From Candidatus Poriferisocius aerobius (GTDB taxonomy: Bacteria > Actinomycetota > Acidimicrobiia > Acidimicrobiales > Bin134): 32,963 nt of DNA. Under the pieces are notes generated by a model. That model saw only the letters and a program-made list of their open reading frames with translations. It had not been told where the DNA came from and ran no database searches. Both the position numbers and the translations under genes were made by a program. The stretch lies in contig JAPYOC010000118.1 of NCBI GenBank assembly GCA_028278955.1, positions 1-32,963 on the forward strand, read 5' to 3'. Shown piece by piece: positions 7,995 to 24,889 of the stretch; within the stretch, counting starts at the first letter, position 1; each line of letters opens with the position of its first letter.

Positions 7995-9134
7995 ATGCCG
8001 GACACCGGGGCGTACTTGGACCACGCAGCGTCGACCCCGCTGTGCGCCGAGGCTTCGGACGCCATGGTCCCGATGCACCGGGAGCTGTATGCCAACCCGA
8101 CCGGCGCCCATCGGATGGCCCGGGACACCCGTCGCCGGATCGACGACGCCCGCGACGTGATGGCCGAAGCGCTGGGCGCGGCGCCGGGGGAGATCGTGTT
8201 CACCAGCGGGGGGACCGAGGGCGACAACCTGGCGGTGGCCGGCCGGCATTTGGCGGCGGGCGGGGTGGCGGTGTGCTCGGCCGTCGAGCACCACGCGGTG
8301 CTGGCACCGGTGGAGCACCTGGGCGGCCGGGTGGTGGCGGTGCATGCGTCCGGGGTGATCGACATGGACGCGCTGGCCGCGGCCCTCGACGACGAGGTGA
8401 CCGTGGTGTCGGTGATGCTGGCCAACAATGAGACCGGCATGGTCCAGCCCCTGGAACAGGTGGCCGAAGCGGCGCGCTCGCGTGCGCCTCGGGCCGTGCT
8501 CCACACCGATGCCGTGCAGGCCTTTGCCTGGCTGGACGTGGCTTCTCAAGCGGCATGCGCCGATCTGGTCTCGGTGAGCGCCCACAAGTTCGGCGGTCCC
8601 AAGGGCACCGGCGCGCTGGCGGTACGCGAGGGCGTGGCTCTGTCGCCGCTGCTGCTGGGCGGCGGTCAGGAGCGGGGGCTGCGCTCGGGCACCCACAACG
8701 CCGCGGGCATTGTGGGCATGGCCGCGGCCGCCGAGGTGGTGCTGAAGAGCCGGGCCAAGCAGGTCGTGCGGCTGGCCGAGCTGCGGGATCGGCTGGCGGA
8801 CGGCCTGCTCGGCGCCGTCGAAGGCGCGGTGGAGACCGGGGAGCGTTCCGGCAAGGTGGCCGGGTCAGCCCACCTGTGCTTCGAGGGCGTCGAGTCCGAA
8901 GCGCTGTTGTTCTTGCTGGAAGACGCCGGGGTGTACGCGTCGGCGGCCTCGTCGTGCGCCAGCGGGGCGCAGGATCCGTCCCATGTGCTGGCCGCCATGG
9001 GGTACGACCGGGGGCTGGCAGGGGGATCGCTGCGGCTTTCGCTGGGCTATCAGACCGAGGCCGCCGATATCGATCGGGCGCTAGCGGTGATTCCCGGCGC
9101 GGTGGCCCGGCTTCGGGCCTACGGCACCGGCTAG
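7995..9134 (+). CDS. Cysteine desulfurase (NifS/IscS class)
   Basis: PLP enzyme that converts cysteine to alanine and holds the sulfur as a persulfide for tRNA thiolation and Fe-S assembly. 379 residues. The PLP Schiff-base lysine is Lys198 in SVSAHKFGGPKGTGAL, the stacking His is in AVEHHAV (about His99-His100), and the persulfide cysteine is Cys321 in AASSCASGAQDPSHVL. TSGGTEGDN is the phosphate-binding segment. The ATG at 7995 starts directly at the conserved YLDHAASTP; the longer upstream reading is unsupported. Its stop overlaps a GTG in the mnmA frame, so the sulfur donor and the tRNA thiolase are an operon, the usual pairing. Confidence 0.95.
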   Translation: MPDTGAYLDHAASTPLCAEASDAMVPMHRELYANPTGAHRMARDTRRRIDDARDVMAEALGAAPGEIVFTSGGTEGDNLAVAGRHLAAGGVAVCSAVEHHAVLAPVEHLGGRVVAVHASGVIDMDALAAALDDEVTVVSVMLANNETGMVQPLEQVAEAARSRAPRAVLHTDAVQAFAWLDVASQAACADLVSVSAHKFGGPKGTGALAVREGVALSPLLLGGGQERGLRSGTHNAAGIVGMAAAAEVVLKSRAKQVVRLAELRDRLADGLLGAVEGAVETGERSGKVAGSAHLCFEGVESEALLFLLEDAGVYASAASSCASGAQDPSHVLAAMGYDRGLAGGSLRLSLGYQTEAADIDRALAVIPGAVARLRAYGTG

Positions 9135-9148
9135 TGAGCAGCCGGGCG

Positions 9149-10027
9149 ATGCGGGTGTTGGCGGCCATGTCGGGGGGCGTGGACTCGTCGGTGGCGGCCG
9201 CGCTGCTGGCCGAGCAAGGCCACGATGTGGTGGGGGTGACCCTCAAGCTGTGGGGTGGGGAGTCCGACACCGGGTGCTGTTCGGTGTCGGATGTGGAGGA
9301 TGCCCGCCGGGTGGCCGACCGCTTGGGTTTGCAGCACCACGTGTTCAATTTCGGCGATGCCTTCGATGAGCGGGTGGTGGGCCCCTATGTCGATCATCAC
9401 GCCGTCGGCCTCACCCCCAACCCCTGTATCGAGTGCAATCGCCACATCAAGTTCGACAAACTGATGGTGCGGGCCGAGGCGCTGGGATTCGATGCCGTGG
9501 CCACCGGCCACCACGCCCGCCTGGCGGCCGCCGAGAGCGGGTTCCGGGTGCGGCGGGGGGTGGACGCGGCCAAGGACCAGTCATATGTGCTGTACATGCT
9601 GGACCAGCAGCAGATGGCCCGACTGATGCTGCCCATCGGCCACCTGACCAAGGACCAGGTTCGGAGGCGGGCCGCCGCCCTCGGCCTGCGGAACTCGGCC
9701 AAGCCCGACAGCCAGGACGTGTGCTTCATAGCCAACCGGGCCGGAGGCCGGAAGGGGTTCCTGTCCCGTCGCTTGGGCGAGTCGCCCGCCACCGTGGTGG
9801 ACGCCGACGGTGCGGAACTGGGCTCAGTCGAGGCGGTGCAGGCGGTGACCATCGGCCAGCGCCGCGGCCTCAACCTCGGCGGCGCCGACGAGCCCCGGTA
9901 TGTGACCAAAGTGGATATTGACGCGGGCCGGATCACCGTGGGTCGCCGAGAAGACCTCTACACCTCGACTCAGGACGTGATCAACATCTGTTGGGCCGGG
10001 ATGCTTCCATTGTTCGCGGTGAGCTGA
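9149..10027 (+). CDS. mnmA: tRNA-uridine 2-sulfurtransferase MnmA, 3'-truncated
   Basis: Thiolates U34 of Lys, Glu and Gln tRNAs using sulfur from cysteine desulfurase. Present: the PP-loop MSGGVDSS (residues 7-14), the first cysteine motif PNPCIECN (Cys96), the ATGHHAR segment, and the second catalytic cysteine Cys192 in SQDVCF. The family is about 360 residues; here only 292 exist. Recognisable MnmA sequence ends near QDVINICWAG (about 9975-10003), then runs into LPLFAVS and a stop inside lower-GC DNA. The C-terminal beta-barrel domain is therefore gone. A GTG at 9134 overlapping the desulfurase stop is an alternative start. Probably inactivated, though both catalytic cysteines remain. Whether another copy exists is not visible. 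Confidence 0.88.
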   Translation: MRVLAAMSGGVDSSVAAALLAEQGHDVVGVTLKLWGGESDTGCCSVSDVEDARRVADRLGLQHHVFNFGDAFDERVVGPYVDHHAVGLTPNPCIECNRHIKFDKLMVRAEALGFDAVATGHHARLAAAESGFRVRRGVDAAKDQSYVLYMLDQQQMARLMLPIGHLTKDQVRRRAAALGLRNSAKPDSQDVCFIANRAGGRKGFLSRRLGESPATVVDADGAELGSVEAVQAVTIGQRRGLNLGGADEPRYVTKVDIDAGRITVGRREDLYTSTQDVINICWAGMLPLFAVS

Positions 10028-10734
10028 TAGCTCGTGAGGGGCGCGACGATAAAGAGTTCCACTTTCAGCGTTGGGTTCAGGCTCGTCTCGGCGAGGCTGG
10101 TATCAATCACGACGATCCCGGTCGGAACAGCTACCCAGATTTGACTTTGGTAAACACCCCCGAAGGCATCGAAGTGAAGGGACTGGCGACACCGGGGCGC
10201 GATGCTTCGTTTGATGGGAACAGCCAGGTAGCCCGACCGAAACACAACGGGCGGACAATCTACTACGCGTTCGGCAGGTACCCGGCATCCCCCGAGGGCA
10301 ATACCTTTCCAGTTGTGGACCTCGTAGTCGTCCCTGGCTCCTTCCTCAACGCCGACGACGCCTACGAGCATAAGAACACAAGCACCCGGGGGTTCGGCAG
10401 CTATGGCGATATCTTGCTCCGCGACCGCAAGATGTATGTGATGCCTACCCCGGTGGCTTTGCTTGAAGGAGTTGAGGGTACTCGCACCTTGCTGCTCCCT
10501 GCTGACGATGATCCAGGTGACGGATTTATCCAAGTCGGGAATATCACTCGGGTTGAGGTTGAAGACGTGATGACCGGCTATTCGTTTGATTTCGCCACAA
10601 ACCAGCTGAGTGCCACATACGGCAAGAACCCTACGGCTGGACGACGGCACCACTTTCGGGCATGGCGGATTGCTCGGCCTGAAGGCCCGGGCGCCGAGGT
10701 GACCATGAGCAAAGATGTCACTCCAAGTGCCTAG
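9991..10734 (+). CDS. Probable type II restriction endonuclease (PD-(D/E)XK)
   Basis: 247-codon frame next to a C5-cytosine methyltransferase. A PD-(D/E)XK nuclease core is visible: Pro49-Asp50, then Glu61-x-Lys63 (YPDLTLVNTPEGIEVKG), preceded by an N-terminal helix (EFHFQRWVQARLGEAG). Nothing later is diagnostic, and I do not recognise the subfamily or recognition site. The frame has no ATG before the nuclease core. The first possible start is TTG at 9991, inside mnmA, with CTG at 10024 as another option, so the natural 5' end may have been lost or translation may depend on mnmA. Base composition is lower in GC than the neighbours. Its stop lies within the -10-like hexamer of the methyltransferase. 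Confidence 0.72.
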   Translation: MGRDASIVRGELIAREGRDDKEFHFQRWVQARLGEAGINHDDPGRNSYPDLTLVNTPEGIEVKGLATPGRDASFDGNSQVARPKHNGRTIYYAFGRYPASPEGNTFPVVDLVVVPGSFLNADDAYEHKNTSTRGFGSYGDILLRDRKMYVMPTPVALLEGVEGTRTLLLPADDDPGDGFIQVGNITRVEVEDVMTGYSFDFATNQLSATYGKNPTAGRRHHFRAWRIARPEGPGAEVTMSKDVTPSA

Positions 10735-10737
10735 AGT
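10732..10737 (+). promoter_or_regulatory. Candidate -10 hexamer for the methyltransferase
   Basis: TAGAGT lies 6 nt before the GTG at 10744. Its TAG is also the stop codon of the restriction gene. The methyltransferase could thus be expressed independently of the nuclease, which is needed when an R-M system establishes. Confidence 0.45.
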
Positions 10738-10743
10738 GGTCTC

Positions 10744-11868
10744 GTGGGCGATCTGACCGCACTCAGCATGTTCTCCGGTGCAGGGGGGCTTGACCTTGGA
10801 TTCGAGGCTGCGGGCTTCACCACTGTTGCTGCGGTCGACCATGATCCGAACGCTGTCGACACGCTCCGCAAGAACCGGCCCGAATGGAATCCAGTCGAAG
10901 CTGATGTACGGGATTGGGCGCCTGAAGGTCTACCCGACATCCCAGATGTGCTGATAGCCGGACCGCCATGCCAAGGGTTCAGCCTCGGCGGGAACCGCCA
11001 GGCAGCGGACGATAGGAACGGGCTGTTCCGCGAAGTGTGTCGTGTTGCTCGACAGGTGCGTCCTCGCGTTGTCATCATTGAGAACGTCTTGAATTTGCGC
11101 ACGATGCTGCATCCCGGCAGCGGACGGCCATTCGTCAAAGAGATCGCTGTGTCGCTGGTTGAAGCTGGATATGGGGATATTGCCTGGGACGTGTTCAAGA
11201 TGGATGGTCACGGAGTTCCGCAGACTCGACGGCGGTTCATGTTTGTGGCATTTCGAAACAATGCACCTGACAGTTGGCACCTTCCAGCCCCTTCAGGCTA
11301 TGAACCAATCCGCCCATGGCTATGGGATCTCGCTCATGACGACGAGATTTCTTTGCCTAACCATGATCCCTCTTGGGGATTCAAGTCGCAGGTGCATGTT
11401 GACCGAGGAGAGGATCCCGGCGTAGAGGCCCCAATAAGCGTTGTACGGTTTTCCCGCACAGCTTCCGATGGCAACCCGATTCGGGATTGGGACCGCTCCT
11501 TCCCCGCAGTAGACACCGCGACGGTATGGGGTCTTGCTCAAGGGCACGTCTGTGCCCGTCGCGAACCAAGGGATCGAGGTAAAGGAGCAAAGTTCGTGCG
11601 GAATCCAGATACTGATGTCACCCTGTGGCGCATCCAGGCTGACCGCCTCCGTTCGCTCACGCACCGAGAATATGCTCGTCTCCAAACTTTCCCAGACTCG
11701 TGGGAGTTCATCGGCGGTAACAAACGTGATGTGCATCTCCAAATTGGTAACGCTGTTCCTGTCCAGTTTGCCAAAAAGTTGGGCCGCAACATCCAGAAGG
11801 CAATCCGAGCCCTCGACACCGGCCAAGTATTTCCGCAGTTAGAAGATGCCCCCCTTCGGCTTTTTTGA
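10744..11868 (+). CDS. DNA (cytosine-5-)-methyltransferase
   Basis: 374-residue C5-cytosine methyltransferase, the modification half of the R-M pair. Conserved motifs appear in the family order: I LSMFSGAGGLDLGF (SAM binding), IV GPPCQGFS (catalytic Cys76), VI IIENV (Glu113), VIII GVPQTRRRFMFV, IX REYARLQTFPDSW, and X QIGNAVP. The target-recognition region lies between about residues 190 and 310 and does not reveal the site. The gene appears complete and ends in a short T-run (11861-11866). GTG start, with a TAGAGT hexamer 6 nt upstream. Protects the host from the partner nuclease encoded just upstream. Composition is lower in GC than the flanking genes. Confidence 0.94.
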   Translation: MGDLTALSMFSGAGGLDLGFEAAGFTTVAAVDHDPNAVDTLRKNRPEWNPVEADVRDWAPEGLPDIPDVLIAGPPCQGFSLGGNRQAADDRNGLFREVCRVARQVRPRVVIIENVLNLRTMLHPGSGRPFVKEIAVSLVEAGYGDIAWDVFKMDGHGVPQTRRRFMFVAFRNNAPDSWHLPAPSGYEPIRPWLWDLAHDDEISLPNHDPSWGFKSQVHVDRGEDPGVEAPISVVRFSRTASDGNPIRDWDRSFPAVDTATVWGLAQGHVCARREPRDRGKGAKFVRNPDTDVTLWRIQADRLRSLTHREYARLQTFPDSWEFIGGNKRDVHLQIGNAVPVQFAKKLGRNIQKAIRALDTGQVFPQLEDAPLRLF

Positions 11869-11922
11869 TTGTCGCTGCGCTGAAATCAAACTTATTGAGT
11901 CTTCGTGAAAACGTGGGGAAGC

Positions 11923-12776
11923 TCAGCCGTCGGCTTCAGGCTGTAAGTTCGAGATCACTCGGCCGTTGCAGATCTCCACCGGGTACAGGGTTATGGGGTT
12001 GGTGGCCGGACGCCGCACCGCCGCTCCGGTCCGTAGGTCGAAGCGGCCGTTGTGCTTGGGGCACTCCACCAGGCAGTCGAGCACCACGCCTTCGGCCAGA
12101 TGCGCTTGGCCGTGGGTGCAGAGACCTTCGGTGCAGGCCAAGGTGCCGTCGTCTAGTCGAAAAAGGGCATAGGTTTCGTCGCCCACGTCCACCCGAAGGG
12201 CCAAGCCAGGGGCCAGCGCGCTGGCCGGGCCGAGGTCGAACCAGCCGTCGTGGCGGTCGCCAGCCCACACGGTGTGGCCGGTGTCGCCTGAGCCGCGGTC
12301 CGCATTAGTCACTGCTGGCAGGGCGGTGCGGGGCTCGTCGTAGGCCGGGTCGCGCCATTGGCGGCGCAGGGTGGAGAGTATCTGGCGATAGGCCGACCAG
12401 GTATTGGGCGATGCCGGAGCCAGGTAGCCCTTCACTTCTCGGTGAAGGGCGGGAAGGGAGTAGTAGGGCACGGTGGGGAACATGTGGTGCTCTGTGTGGT
12501 AGTTCATGTTGGAGTACAAGAACCGCAGGACCGGGTTCATGTAAATGGTGCGGGTGTTGAGGCGGTGGTCCAGCACATCCTCTCGCAGGCCCGTGTGCTG
12601 GCTGACGGCAAAGAATGCCATCAGCGGGCCCCGTAGACGGTGGGCAAGCCGATGTAGAGCAAGGGCACGATGGTCCACGAGGCCAGGTAGTACACCGCGT
12701 CGTTGAGCTGCTTGGTCTTGAAGGCGGTGCCGTGGCCGCATTCGTGCCAGCGGGAGTCGCCGGCCCCGCCGTAGAT
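11923..12776 (-). pseudogene. Membrane fatty-acid desaturase with Rieske domain, degraded
   Basis: Remnant of a desaturase fused to a C-terminal Rieske [2Fe-2S] ferredoxin. One frame (12776 to about 12630) reads IYGGAGDSRWHECGHGTAF, carrying histidine box 1 (HECGH). After a frameshift within GGGGCCC near 12625-12632 it continues as LMAFFAVSQHTGLREDVLDH, NMNYHTEHHMFP (box 3), and then the Rieske module with CTH and CPKH cluster ligands, ending at 11923. The part before box 1 is missing. The expected HxxHH box 2 is also absent: YYLASW runs directly into TIVPLLYIGLP, an internal loss of perhaps over 100 residues. It could not work as a desaturase; the Rieske domain alone looks intact. Confidence 0.85.
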
Positions 12777-12781
12777 CTAAG

Positions 12782-13260
12782 GCGAGCCGGTAGATCCTCG
12801 GATCGGGCTTTCGCAAGCCCACCGCACTGGAGTCGATCACCGCTTCAAACAGCTCATCGACCGGGATGAGCCGGCGCCACATATCGCCGAACTCTTTGGC
12901 ATTATTGGTGATAATCGCCTGTCTGATTCCTGCTTGGTTCAGCTCCCGCACCTTGGCCACGGCTGTCTCACGCCGCTCGTCGCTGCTCGTGCTGCCCATG
13001 GCTTTGAAGAAGCCGTCGGCGTCGAACCCTTCGATGCCGTCAGCTCGACACGCCTCGGCTGCGGCCTCCAGCGCCTCGGCCAGGGTCCCCTCGCCCCGCT
13101 CCAGTCGGTGCCAGGGATGATCGCCGTCGGTTTCATACCGGCCGAACACATGCTCCAAGAGCCGGTCGTTGGTGGTGCCCAGCGAGCGAGCGTAGTCGTC
13201 GAGATGGAACGGCGATCCGGTGAACACCCCGCCGAAATCCCAGAACACCGTGCTGATCAT
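12782..13260 (-). pseudogene. HAD-like hydrolase, C-terminally truncated and fused to desaturase remnant
   Basis: N-terminal two-thirds of a HAD-superfamily hydrolase (about 160 residues from ATG at 13260). Motif I is TVFWDFGGVF (Asp8), motif II AIITNN (Thr118), and motif III GLRKPDPRIY (Lys151). The acidic motif IV expected about 25 residues later is missing: sequence switches at about 12780 to desaturase DNA read out of frame. The frame then stays open to 11923, giving a 445-codon chimeric ORF, which I consider accidental. It starts 19 nt after the ligA stop on the same strand, so the intact ancestor was probably cotranscribed with ligA. The short sequence GATCTAC occurs on both sides of the junction. 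Confidence 0.8.
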
Positions 13261-13279
13261 GGCGACACTGAACCACGGC

Positions 13280-17207
<3,928 letters not shown>

Positions 17208-17213
17208 GCCATC

Positions 17214-17219
17214 AGTATA
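17214..17219 (-). promoter_or_regulatory. Candidate -10 hexamer for the HNH gene
   Basis: TATACT on the minus strand (5 of 6 match) is 6 nt upstream of the ATG at 17207. It is the best -10 match in the window and fits a leaderless transcript. Confidence 0.55.
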
Positions 17220-17360
17220 TCGGTGCCAGTGACAGTTCGACTTTGCGATCTCACCGGGGATGCAGGTGACAGCGCATCGAATTGTTGCGCCTTGGTCAGG
17301 AGAAAGCAGCAGGATCGACCATTCGCAGGAAGTCGTGTTCGCGCAAGATGGGGTTGGGCG

Positions 17361-18263
17361 GTGAGAAGTGCTGTAGTGGGGAAGGTGAAGGGGCTCCGGG
17401 GGGATCGGCTGTGGGTGTGGGCGGTGCGGGCGTGGTGGGCGGCGTTGCCGTTCACGGCCGGACCGGTGCTGGCTGATGGATTGCACGAGACCTCGGCGGC
17501 ATGGCGGACGACTGCCTCGGGAGGGCTTTGGGCCATTTGGGGCCTCGTCCTCGCCGGCGCCCTTTTGGCCCTTCCGGCCACGCTGGTTCTGGTCCGGCTG
17601 GCAATGACGGCAGCCGTGGCTGCCGTTTTGTGGGCAGGATGGGGTGCCGCCGACTGGGGCGAGGTTGCGCTCATGGCGGCCGTCAGCGGAGCACTGGCCG
17701 CGGTGGCGCTGAGCGCGCCGGTGGGCCAGGTGTTCGTGAACGGCATCTCGTACGGCGATGAGATAAGGCTTCTCTTGCGACCGCCGGCTGTGTTGTTGGC
17801 CGGACCGCTGCCGGCGGCGGCGGTCATCAGCGTGGGCGGGGCAATCAGCGGGCCGCTGCTTTTGGCCGCCGAGCACTGGATTGCCGGAGGGGTGATCACG
17901 GCGGTGGGCGCGCCCTTGGCGGTTCTCGCCGTTCGATCGCTCTATTCGCTTACCCGCCGGTGGATTGTGTTCGTGCCTGCGGGCCTGGTGCTCCACGATC
18001 ACCTGGCGGTGCAAGACCCGGTTCTGCTCCGCCGCCGATCGGTGGACGGCTTCGGTCCCGCCAAGCAGGGATCCGATGCTCTGGACCTGAGCCAGGGGGC
18101 GGCTGGGCTGCTATTGCAGCTGTCCCTGCACCAGCCGGCCGAGCTGTCGGCCCCGGCCAAGCGCAAGCACAACGACCGAGAAACGCTCGCCAGGGCCATT
18201 CTGATTGCCCCCTCCCGCCCCGGTCAGGCCATCGCCATCGCCCGCCGGCGGCAACTGTGGTGA
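17361..18263 (+). CDS. Polytopic membrane protein of unknown function
   Basis: About 300 residues with roughly six hydrophobic segments in the first two-thirds, including LWAIWGLVLAGALLALPATLVLV, AAVAAVLWAGWGAADW, AVLLAGPLPAAAVISVGGAI and WIAGGVITAVGAPLAVLAV. A soluble C-terminal region follows (WIVFVPAGLVLHDHLAVQDPVLLRRRSVDGFG) that looks like a beta-rich, PH-like conserved tail. I do not recognise a named family. GTG codons at 17361, 17376 and 17385 are all possible starts; 17361 gives the longest frame without running into the divergent HNH promoter. A longer in-frame start at 17157 would overlap the HNH gene and looks false. Convergent with the anchored protein at 18296. Confidence 0.75.
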   Translation: MRSAVVGKVKGLRGDRLWVWAVRAWWAALPFTAGPVLADGLHETSAAWRTTASGGLWAIWGLVLAGALLALPATLVLVRLAMTAAVAAVLWAGWGAADWGEVALMAAVSGALAAVALSAPVGQVFVNGISYGDEIRLLLRPPAVLLAGPLPAAAVISVGGAISGPLLLAAEHWIAGGVITAVGAPLAVLAVRSLYSLTRRWIVFVPAGLVLHDHLAVQDPVLLRRRSVDGFGPAKQGSDALDLSQGAAGLLLQLSLHQPAELSAPAKRKHNDRETLARAILIAPSRPGQAIAIARRRQLW

Positions 18264-18295
18264 TCGCCGAGTTCCTCCGCCCCTACGGCTTTGCC

Positions 18296-24425: not shown

Positions 24426-24433
24426 TGGTGTGT

Positions 24434-24889
24434 CTAGCGAACCGCGCCGGGGACCAGCCAGCCGGTTCCGGTGAAGCGCCACACCAGGGCGACCAGTCGG
24501 GCGGCCATGAGCGCCCAGATGGCGCCCCACAGCCAGCCGATGCCCGCGTCGGCGGCCAGCACCCACAGGGCCAGGGGGATGAACACCGCCGCCGCGCCGG
24601 ACATGGCCACGGCCAGGAACCGAATGTCCCCGGCGCCGATCAGCCGCCCCACCGCGGCGGTGGTCCCGTAGGCCAAGAAGATGAACAGCGACAGCGCTCC
24701 CAACAGCACCTGCGAGGCCACCGCCAGTCCGCCCAGATGGGGCGTGCCCAGATGCCCCACCACTGCGGTATCGGCCAGGGTGTAGAGCGGCTCGGCCACC
24801 AGCGCGCCCAGCGCGGGAACCGCCAACCGGGCGATCTCCCGGTCATAGGGCGAACGGTGCAATCCCAACGGCCCCCTCATCTGCCTCAT
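24434..24889 (-). pseudogene. MATE-family efflux protein with large internal deletion
   Basis: 151-residue frame that looks like the two ends of a MATE/DinF-type exporter (usually about 440 residues). The beginning is typical: REIARLAVPALGALVAEPLYTLADTAVVGHLGT, through FLAYGTTAAVGRL, the first three helices. It then passes at IGAGD into IRFLAVAMSGAAAVFIPLALWV and IGWLWGAIWALMAARLVALV, which matches the last two or three helices. I infer an in-frame loss of nearly 300 residues between two IGAGD-like coding sites. The remaining product has about five helices and cannot form the 12-helix transporter; residual expression is possible. Divergent from ilvD, 21 nt apart. Confidence 0.75.

Follow-up and report, generated by a model that had tools for sequence, protein, structure and literature searches.

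Can the arrival of a restriction-modification (R-M) pair destroy a conserved tRNA-modification gene? The question is raised by a locus at which mnmA, the gene of the tRNA 2-thiouridine(34) synthase MnmA (TrmU), lacks its 3' end and is directly followed by genes for a restriction endonuclease (REase) and a DNA methyltransferase (MTase). The first-pass annotation of this DNA proposed that an insertion accompanied by DNA loss, and more specifically an addiction-type module, had truncated mnmA. The window analysed here is the whole contig C22 (32,963 bp) of a 2.48-Mb draft assembly with 225 contigs and 92.85% completeness, which is probably a MAG. Its genome (G000) was compared across 22 genomes of its genus. 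The relatives in the genus include the MAGs CAR2_bin_19 (G001) and Acidimicrobiia SB0675_bin_2 (G016). G014 is the single-contig genome of an uncultured Acidimicrobiales (chromosome OX638350).

A truncated mnmA behind an intact desulfurase gene

The features around the junction are:
7995-9134, + strand: intact gene of a cysteine desulfurase (NifS/IscS/YrvO-like) that immediately precedes mnmA (PF00266, TIGR03402)
9149-10027, + strand: mnmA, 3'-truncated, with 283 native codons (9149-9997), nine foreign codons and TGA (PF03054 and PF20259 present)
9991-10734, + strand: type II REase-like gene (PD-X10-EVK), 5'-truncated (homologue comparison)
9998/9999: deletion junction, at which REase residue 13 follows on mnmA codon 283 (comparison with relatives)
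10744-11868, + strand: C5-cytosine DNA methyltransferase, intact, 374 aa (PF00145, TIGR00675; PADLOC MTase_II)
11869-11918: right-hand tail of the R-M cassette, common to G001 (sequence comparison)

The gene at 9149 is a truncated mnmA by descent and not a complete one. Its product shares with MnmA the N-terminal PP-loop catalytic domain (PF03054, E 1.8e-70, residues 1-195), the central domain (PF20259, E 2.8e-14), and the catalytic Cys motifs NPCIECN and SQDVCFI. It differs in that nearly the whole C-terminal β-barrel is gone: Pfam gave no match to PF20258 in the window protein, whereas the intact MnmA of G014 has this domain at 277-340. Complete MnmA comprises 342 residues in the genus members and 352 in G004 (17 loci with complete mnmA among those fetched), and the window protein is homologous through A283. 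Therefore, 59 residues have been lost, fewer than the 70-80 first estimated, and nine unrelated residues have been gained at the terminus. The C-terminal domain of Escherichia coli MnmA spans residues 278-368 (PMC5372745). A desulfurase dedicated to mnmA and encoded directly upstream of it is the Gram-positive arrangement (PMC5372745), and with its intact upstream desulfurase gene the window resembles the YrvO-type desulfurase-mnmA pair of these bacteria.

The lost mnmA sequence does not reappear beyond the island, as had been noted from the start, and the search of the 2.48-Mb assembly for another mnmA copy or a relocated 3' end gave nothing beyond a weak match (E 0.3). Concerning a substitute for MnmA, a single match to a PF01171-type PP-loop enzyme was found, which may simply be TilS. 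The truncation is as unusual as the first-pass annotation had supposed, because MnmA is full-length in nearly all 148 genomes of the order according to profile comparison. No comparable truncation was confirmed among these 148 members, in a survey of short MnmA proteins that left out G092, G102, and G107. Two candidates for naturally short proteins (G059 and G096), picked out by the profile, turned out to have a long insertion followed by the C-terminal part, and two others (G024 and G089) are genes cut at contig ends. In G003, a 91% complete member of the genus, neither mnmA nor a close desulfurase was found, which is most simply explained by an assembly gap.

The endonuclease and its methyltransferase partners

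The REase gene has been cut as well. Its native GTG start and residues 1-12, which are complete in the relatives, are absent: an N-terminal stretch common to relatives and distant homologues (VSSLIPAAFRSM in the genus) is lacking in the window. The only in-frame candidate start before the nuclease motif is the TTG at 9991, which lies inside mnmA-derived sequence. A model of the intact REase has a helix at residues 5-17 that is mostly lost in the window form. Residues P58-D59, E70, and K72 are invariant in eight homologues. The fold model reached a pLDDT of 72 and its best PDB match was EcoRV, although this match is weak (E 0.045, match probability 0.85), followed at a lower score by HincII. 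At the sequence level the REase matched nothing in Pfam, NCBIfam, PADLOC, PHROGs, or PDB. A phage origin was considered and rejected, since neither phages nor viral contigs gave a match.

The MTase is matched by PF00145 over residues 5-352 and by TIGR00675 above cut-off, and its nearest solved structure by sequence is M.HaeIII. Compared to type II R-M systems consisting of an m5C MTase of the M.HaeIII/M.HhaI class and a PD-(D/E)XK nuclease, the window pair is alike in the adjacency of the two genes, the intact MTase, the PD...EVK motif of the REase, and its horizontal mobility; any likeness to the EcoRV/HincII-like fold comes from the weak model match. It differs in that the start codon of the REase is lost and the frame incomplete, and in that homologues of this REase are elsewhere paired with an amino-type MTase of about 700 aa. 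Such homologues (49-52%) are found on mobilizable or conjugative plasmids beside proteins of about 700 aa, three of which were checked and all matched N6_N4_Mtase. The same kind of MTase is present at both loci from Planctomycetales and at one from an actinomycete, while the partner is an m5C MTase in Acidimicrobiia and at locus L062. By locus, the amino-type partner was seen at L061, L063, L064, and L110 to L113, and the m5C partner at L058 to L060 and L062. An MTase gene stands beside the REase gene at the genome-contig and plasmid loci examined. Because one REase family thus occurs with two MTase types according to lineage, these sequences suggest that the methyltransferase partner has been exchanged. 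The family, in combination with either type, may merit specialist attention.

Comparison of the copies indicates that the R-M cassette is mobile. In G008 and G016 it is located on contigs away from mnmA, at unrelated sites. Between G000 and G001, dS is 0.06 for the REase and 0.08 for the MTase, whereas mnmA reaches 0.48 and other genes lie at 0.35-0.65, and the R-M segment is 97% identical to that of G001 while the adjoining DNA is 79-89% identical. The pair also has a lower GC content than its surroundings (0.55-0.62 versus 0.66-0.73), so that the description of a low-GC REase and m5C MTase pair abutting a 3'-truncated mnmA holds, with the junction at 9998/9999.

Insertion and truncation are separate events

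Across the 22 genus genomes, matches to the mnmA side end by 9998 and matches to the R-M side, which come from four R-M carriers, begin at 9999. Relative to G001 about 269 bp are missing at this junction, and relative to G014 about 328 bp. In both of these genomes the same REase and MTase genes (85-97% DNA identity) are found immediately downstream of an intact mnmA; the contig piece of G001 begins inside mnmA, but the 3' end is whole and the gene is essentially full-length. Therefore, the insertion of the R-M pair and the truncation of mnmA are separate events. DNA is indeed missing, as the first-pass annotation had it, but the island is not the cause, and the comparison of close relatives speaks against a truncation on arrival. 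That the R-M insertion itself brought the loss of the mnmA 3' end is in our view highly improbable. It would fit the coincidence of the junction with the mnmA/R-M boundary in the window genome, and an independent second insertion together with a deletion is conceivable given the recent divergence between the R-M copies in G000 and G001. However, a clean insertion is not expected to also remove the start codon and 12 residues of the REase, and in G001, whose R-M copy is almost the same and ends in the same right-hand tail, the cassette directly follows an essentially full-length mnmA. The island does lie in the interval between mnmA and ligA, as first described, but the 5' truncation of its REase had been missed.

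In G001, the cassette lies between mnmA and a convergent DeoC/LacD-type aldolase gene, and its tail ends beside the stop of that gene. Aldolase sequence, whose end was recognised by eye, adjoins mnmA in many relatives free of R-M genes. Several different gene sets border the 3' end of mnmA among the relatives. Genes for an IrrE-like peptidase and a SMODS nucleotidyltransferase were observed downstream of the R-M genes of G014 (L060, 7987-11865); because they follow the cassette there, the 3' side of mnmA may be a hotspot for defence genes.

The junction as one of many probable deletions in the contig

The ligA side of the island has also been rearranged, and what adjoins it there is a fusion gene generated by further deletions:
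11918-11930: second deletion junction, with about 3.75 kb of G001 absent (comparison with G001)
11923-13347, - strand: open frame in which the N-terminal portion of a HAD hydrolase is fused to a fatty-acid desaturase with an internal deletion and to a Rieske domain (alignment with relatives)

The missing 3.75 kb contain the genes for the aldolase, an IolB-like protein, an epimerase, and a GFO/IDH/MocA protein. The HAD-desaturase-Rieske frame has been kept open across two deletions: at 12677-12685 exactly 309 bp have been lost inside the desaturase, and at 12775/12781 about 10.8 kb between the desaturase and the HAD gene, in both cases compared to every relative aligning there. About 14.5 kb are missing near 18277, and a MATE transporter gene (about 24430-24830, - strand) has been cut to about 150 aa by a loss of 881 bp, which has the same size against five relatives and is bounded by imperfect 23-bp repeats. 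In total, lineage-specific loss affects about nine sites along the contig, that at 12.7 kb holding two deletions, and the mnmA-REase deletion belongs to a set of about ten. The density is 3.2 sites per 10 kb aligned, compared to a range of 0.17 to 1.03 among the relatives G014, G007, G012, G015, G018, and G006. The same alignment rules were applied to the window and the six relatives, but the ratio is approximate because we chose the thresholds ourselves and the controls cover only 48-90 kb each. The disruption of mnmA by an addiction module is not the explanation, because the deletion has about nine companions in the contig and damaged the REase too.

Two further observations concern neighbouring genes. 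LigA (13280-16228, - strand) has 982 aa with two HHH_2 blocks, and G014 and G001 align across this region, of which about 0.7-0.8 kb are absent from G007, G006, and G015. The adjacent DUF222/HNH protein gene (16245-18014, - strand) belongs to a repeated gene family: its segment at about 16380-16780 has numerous matches scattered over the relatives searched.

So many breaks could also come from the assembly or the binning, for example by a misjoin of mnmA to the R-M segment of a co-sampled strain similar to G001, with DNA skipped at the other junctions. The source is a draft in 225 contigs, the R-M segment is far more similar to G001 than the neighbouring DNA, and contigs of G001, G011, and G021 break at mnmA as well. 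In addition, the window junction is carried by no other genome compared, and the truncated genes do not show sequence decay beyond the cut, which would equally fit a protein that still functions. However, only 5-6 bp are common to both sides of the junction, far under any assembler k-mer, and a misjoin is disfavoured because it would require a shared k-mer. Furthermore, every join is direct and preserves collinearity with the relatives, none being inverted, the skipped segments are absent from the other contigs of the bin, and the 14.5-kb deletion is shared with the independently assembled G001. A small genome at equal marker completeness also fits real loss. We thus regard an artefact as unlikely and take the deletion to be real in the organism.

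The genome has about 2.5 Mb, compared to 3.1-3.8 Mb in most relatives at similar completeness. In this, and in its many lineage-specific deletions, it resembles reduced genomes of host-associated bacteria. Also as in such genomes, accessory genes have been struck while the core genes murA, ligA, gatA, gatB, ilvD, ilvB, ilvC, and glpX of the contig are still open. The genus group is largely sponge-associated, and for the window organism a sponge association may be presumed from the related MAGs.

Timing and selection

The remaining mnmA fragment has no stops and a dN/dS of about 0.11-0.12. Its branch dN is 0.030 in G000, the same as in its sister G001 (0.030), whose mnmA is intact, and the REase accumulated two nonsynonymous and six synonymous changes along the G000 branch. 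Because the branch dN values are equal and the REase changes are few, the cut is either recent or an artefact; from these substitutions the truncation looks recent. A relaxed selection on the fragment was considered, given a dN/dS of 0.11 against 0.06 for five relatives, and rejected: the raised value is no sign of decay because G001 shows the same branch dN.

The same data would also fit a truncated MnmA that still functions, in which case a real deletion would have been nearly neutral for tRNA thiolation. The catalytic and central domains are intact, and the fragment evolves like that of the intact sister. On the other hand, recognition of the tRNA anticodon is assigned to the C-terminal domain in a review (PMC8584467), and no similar truncation was confirmed in the order. 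We therefore judge a functional truncated enzyme to be quite unlikely. Because of the role of this domain in anticodon recognition, described in the same review, a loss of MnmA function in the window organism is the likelier outcome of the truncation.

Proposed history and consequences

It is quite probable that the R-M cassette landed beside an intact mnmA and that a later deletion truncated mnmA and the REase gene together. A mobile type II cassette, REase followed by m5C MTase, would have integrated just downstream of mnmA, at a place where gene content varies widely in the genus. Later, in the lineage of the window, a deletion of about 0.27-0.33 kb would have taken the mnmA 3' end, the DNA between the two genes, and the beginning of the REase gene, as one among many in a shrinking genome and thus as ordinary gene erosion. 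Without the C-terminal barrel of MnmA, the thiolation of U34 would be lost. The REase would be silenced or, if the possible weak TTG start is used, weakened, and the MTase would remain active. A silenced or weakened REase with a still active MTase is a common first step in the decay of R-M systems, and because the MTase is intact the pattern resembles such ordinary decay. Judged from the sequences, the most likely state is therefore an MnmA that is lost or crippled, an REase that is silenced or weakened, and an intact MTase.

The tempting story is thus corrected: no R-M addiction module broke a conserved tRNA-modification gene. Instead, the locus is a clear case in which the comparison of relatives separates insertion from truncation, and it provides a natural setting in which to ask if MnmA requires its C-terminal domain. 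It seems improbable to us that either the barrel-less MnmA of 283 residues is active or s2U34 has only just been lost while the desulfurase persists. If the former were true, the C-terminal domain would be dispensable; if the latter were true, the locus would be a natural snapshot of a near-universal tRNA modification disappearing.
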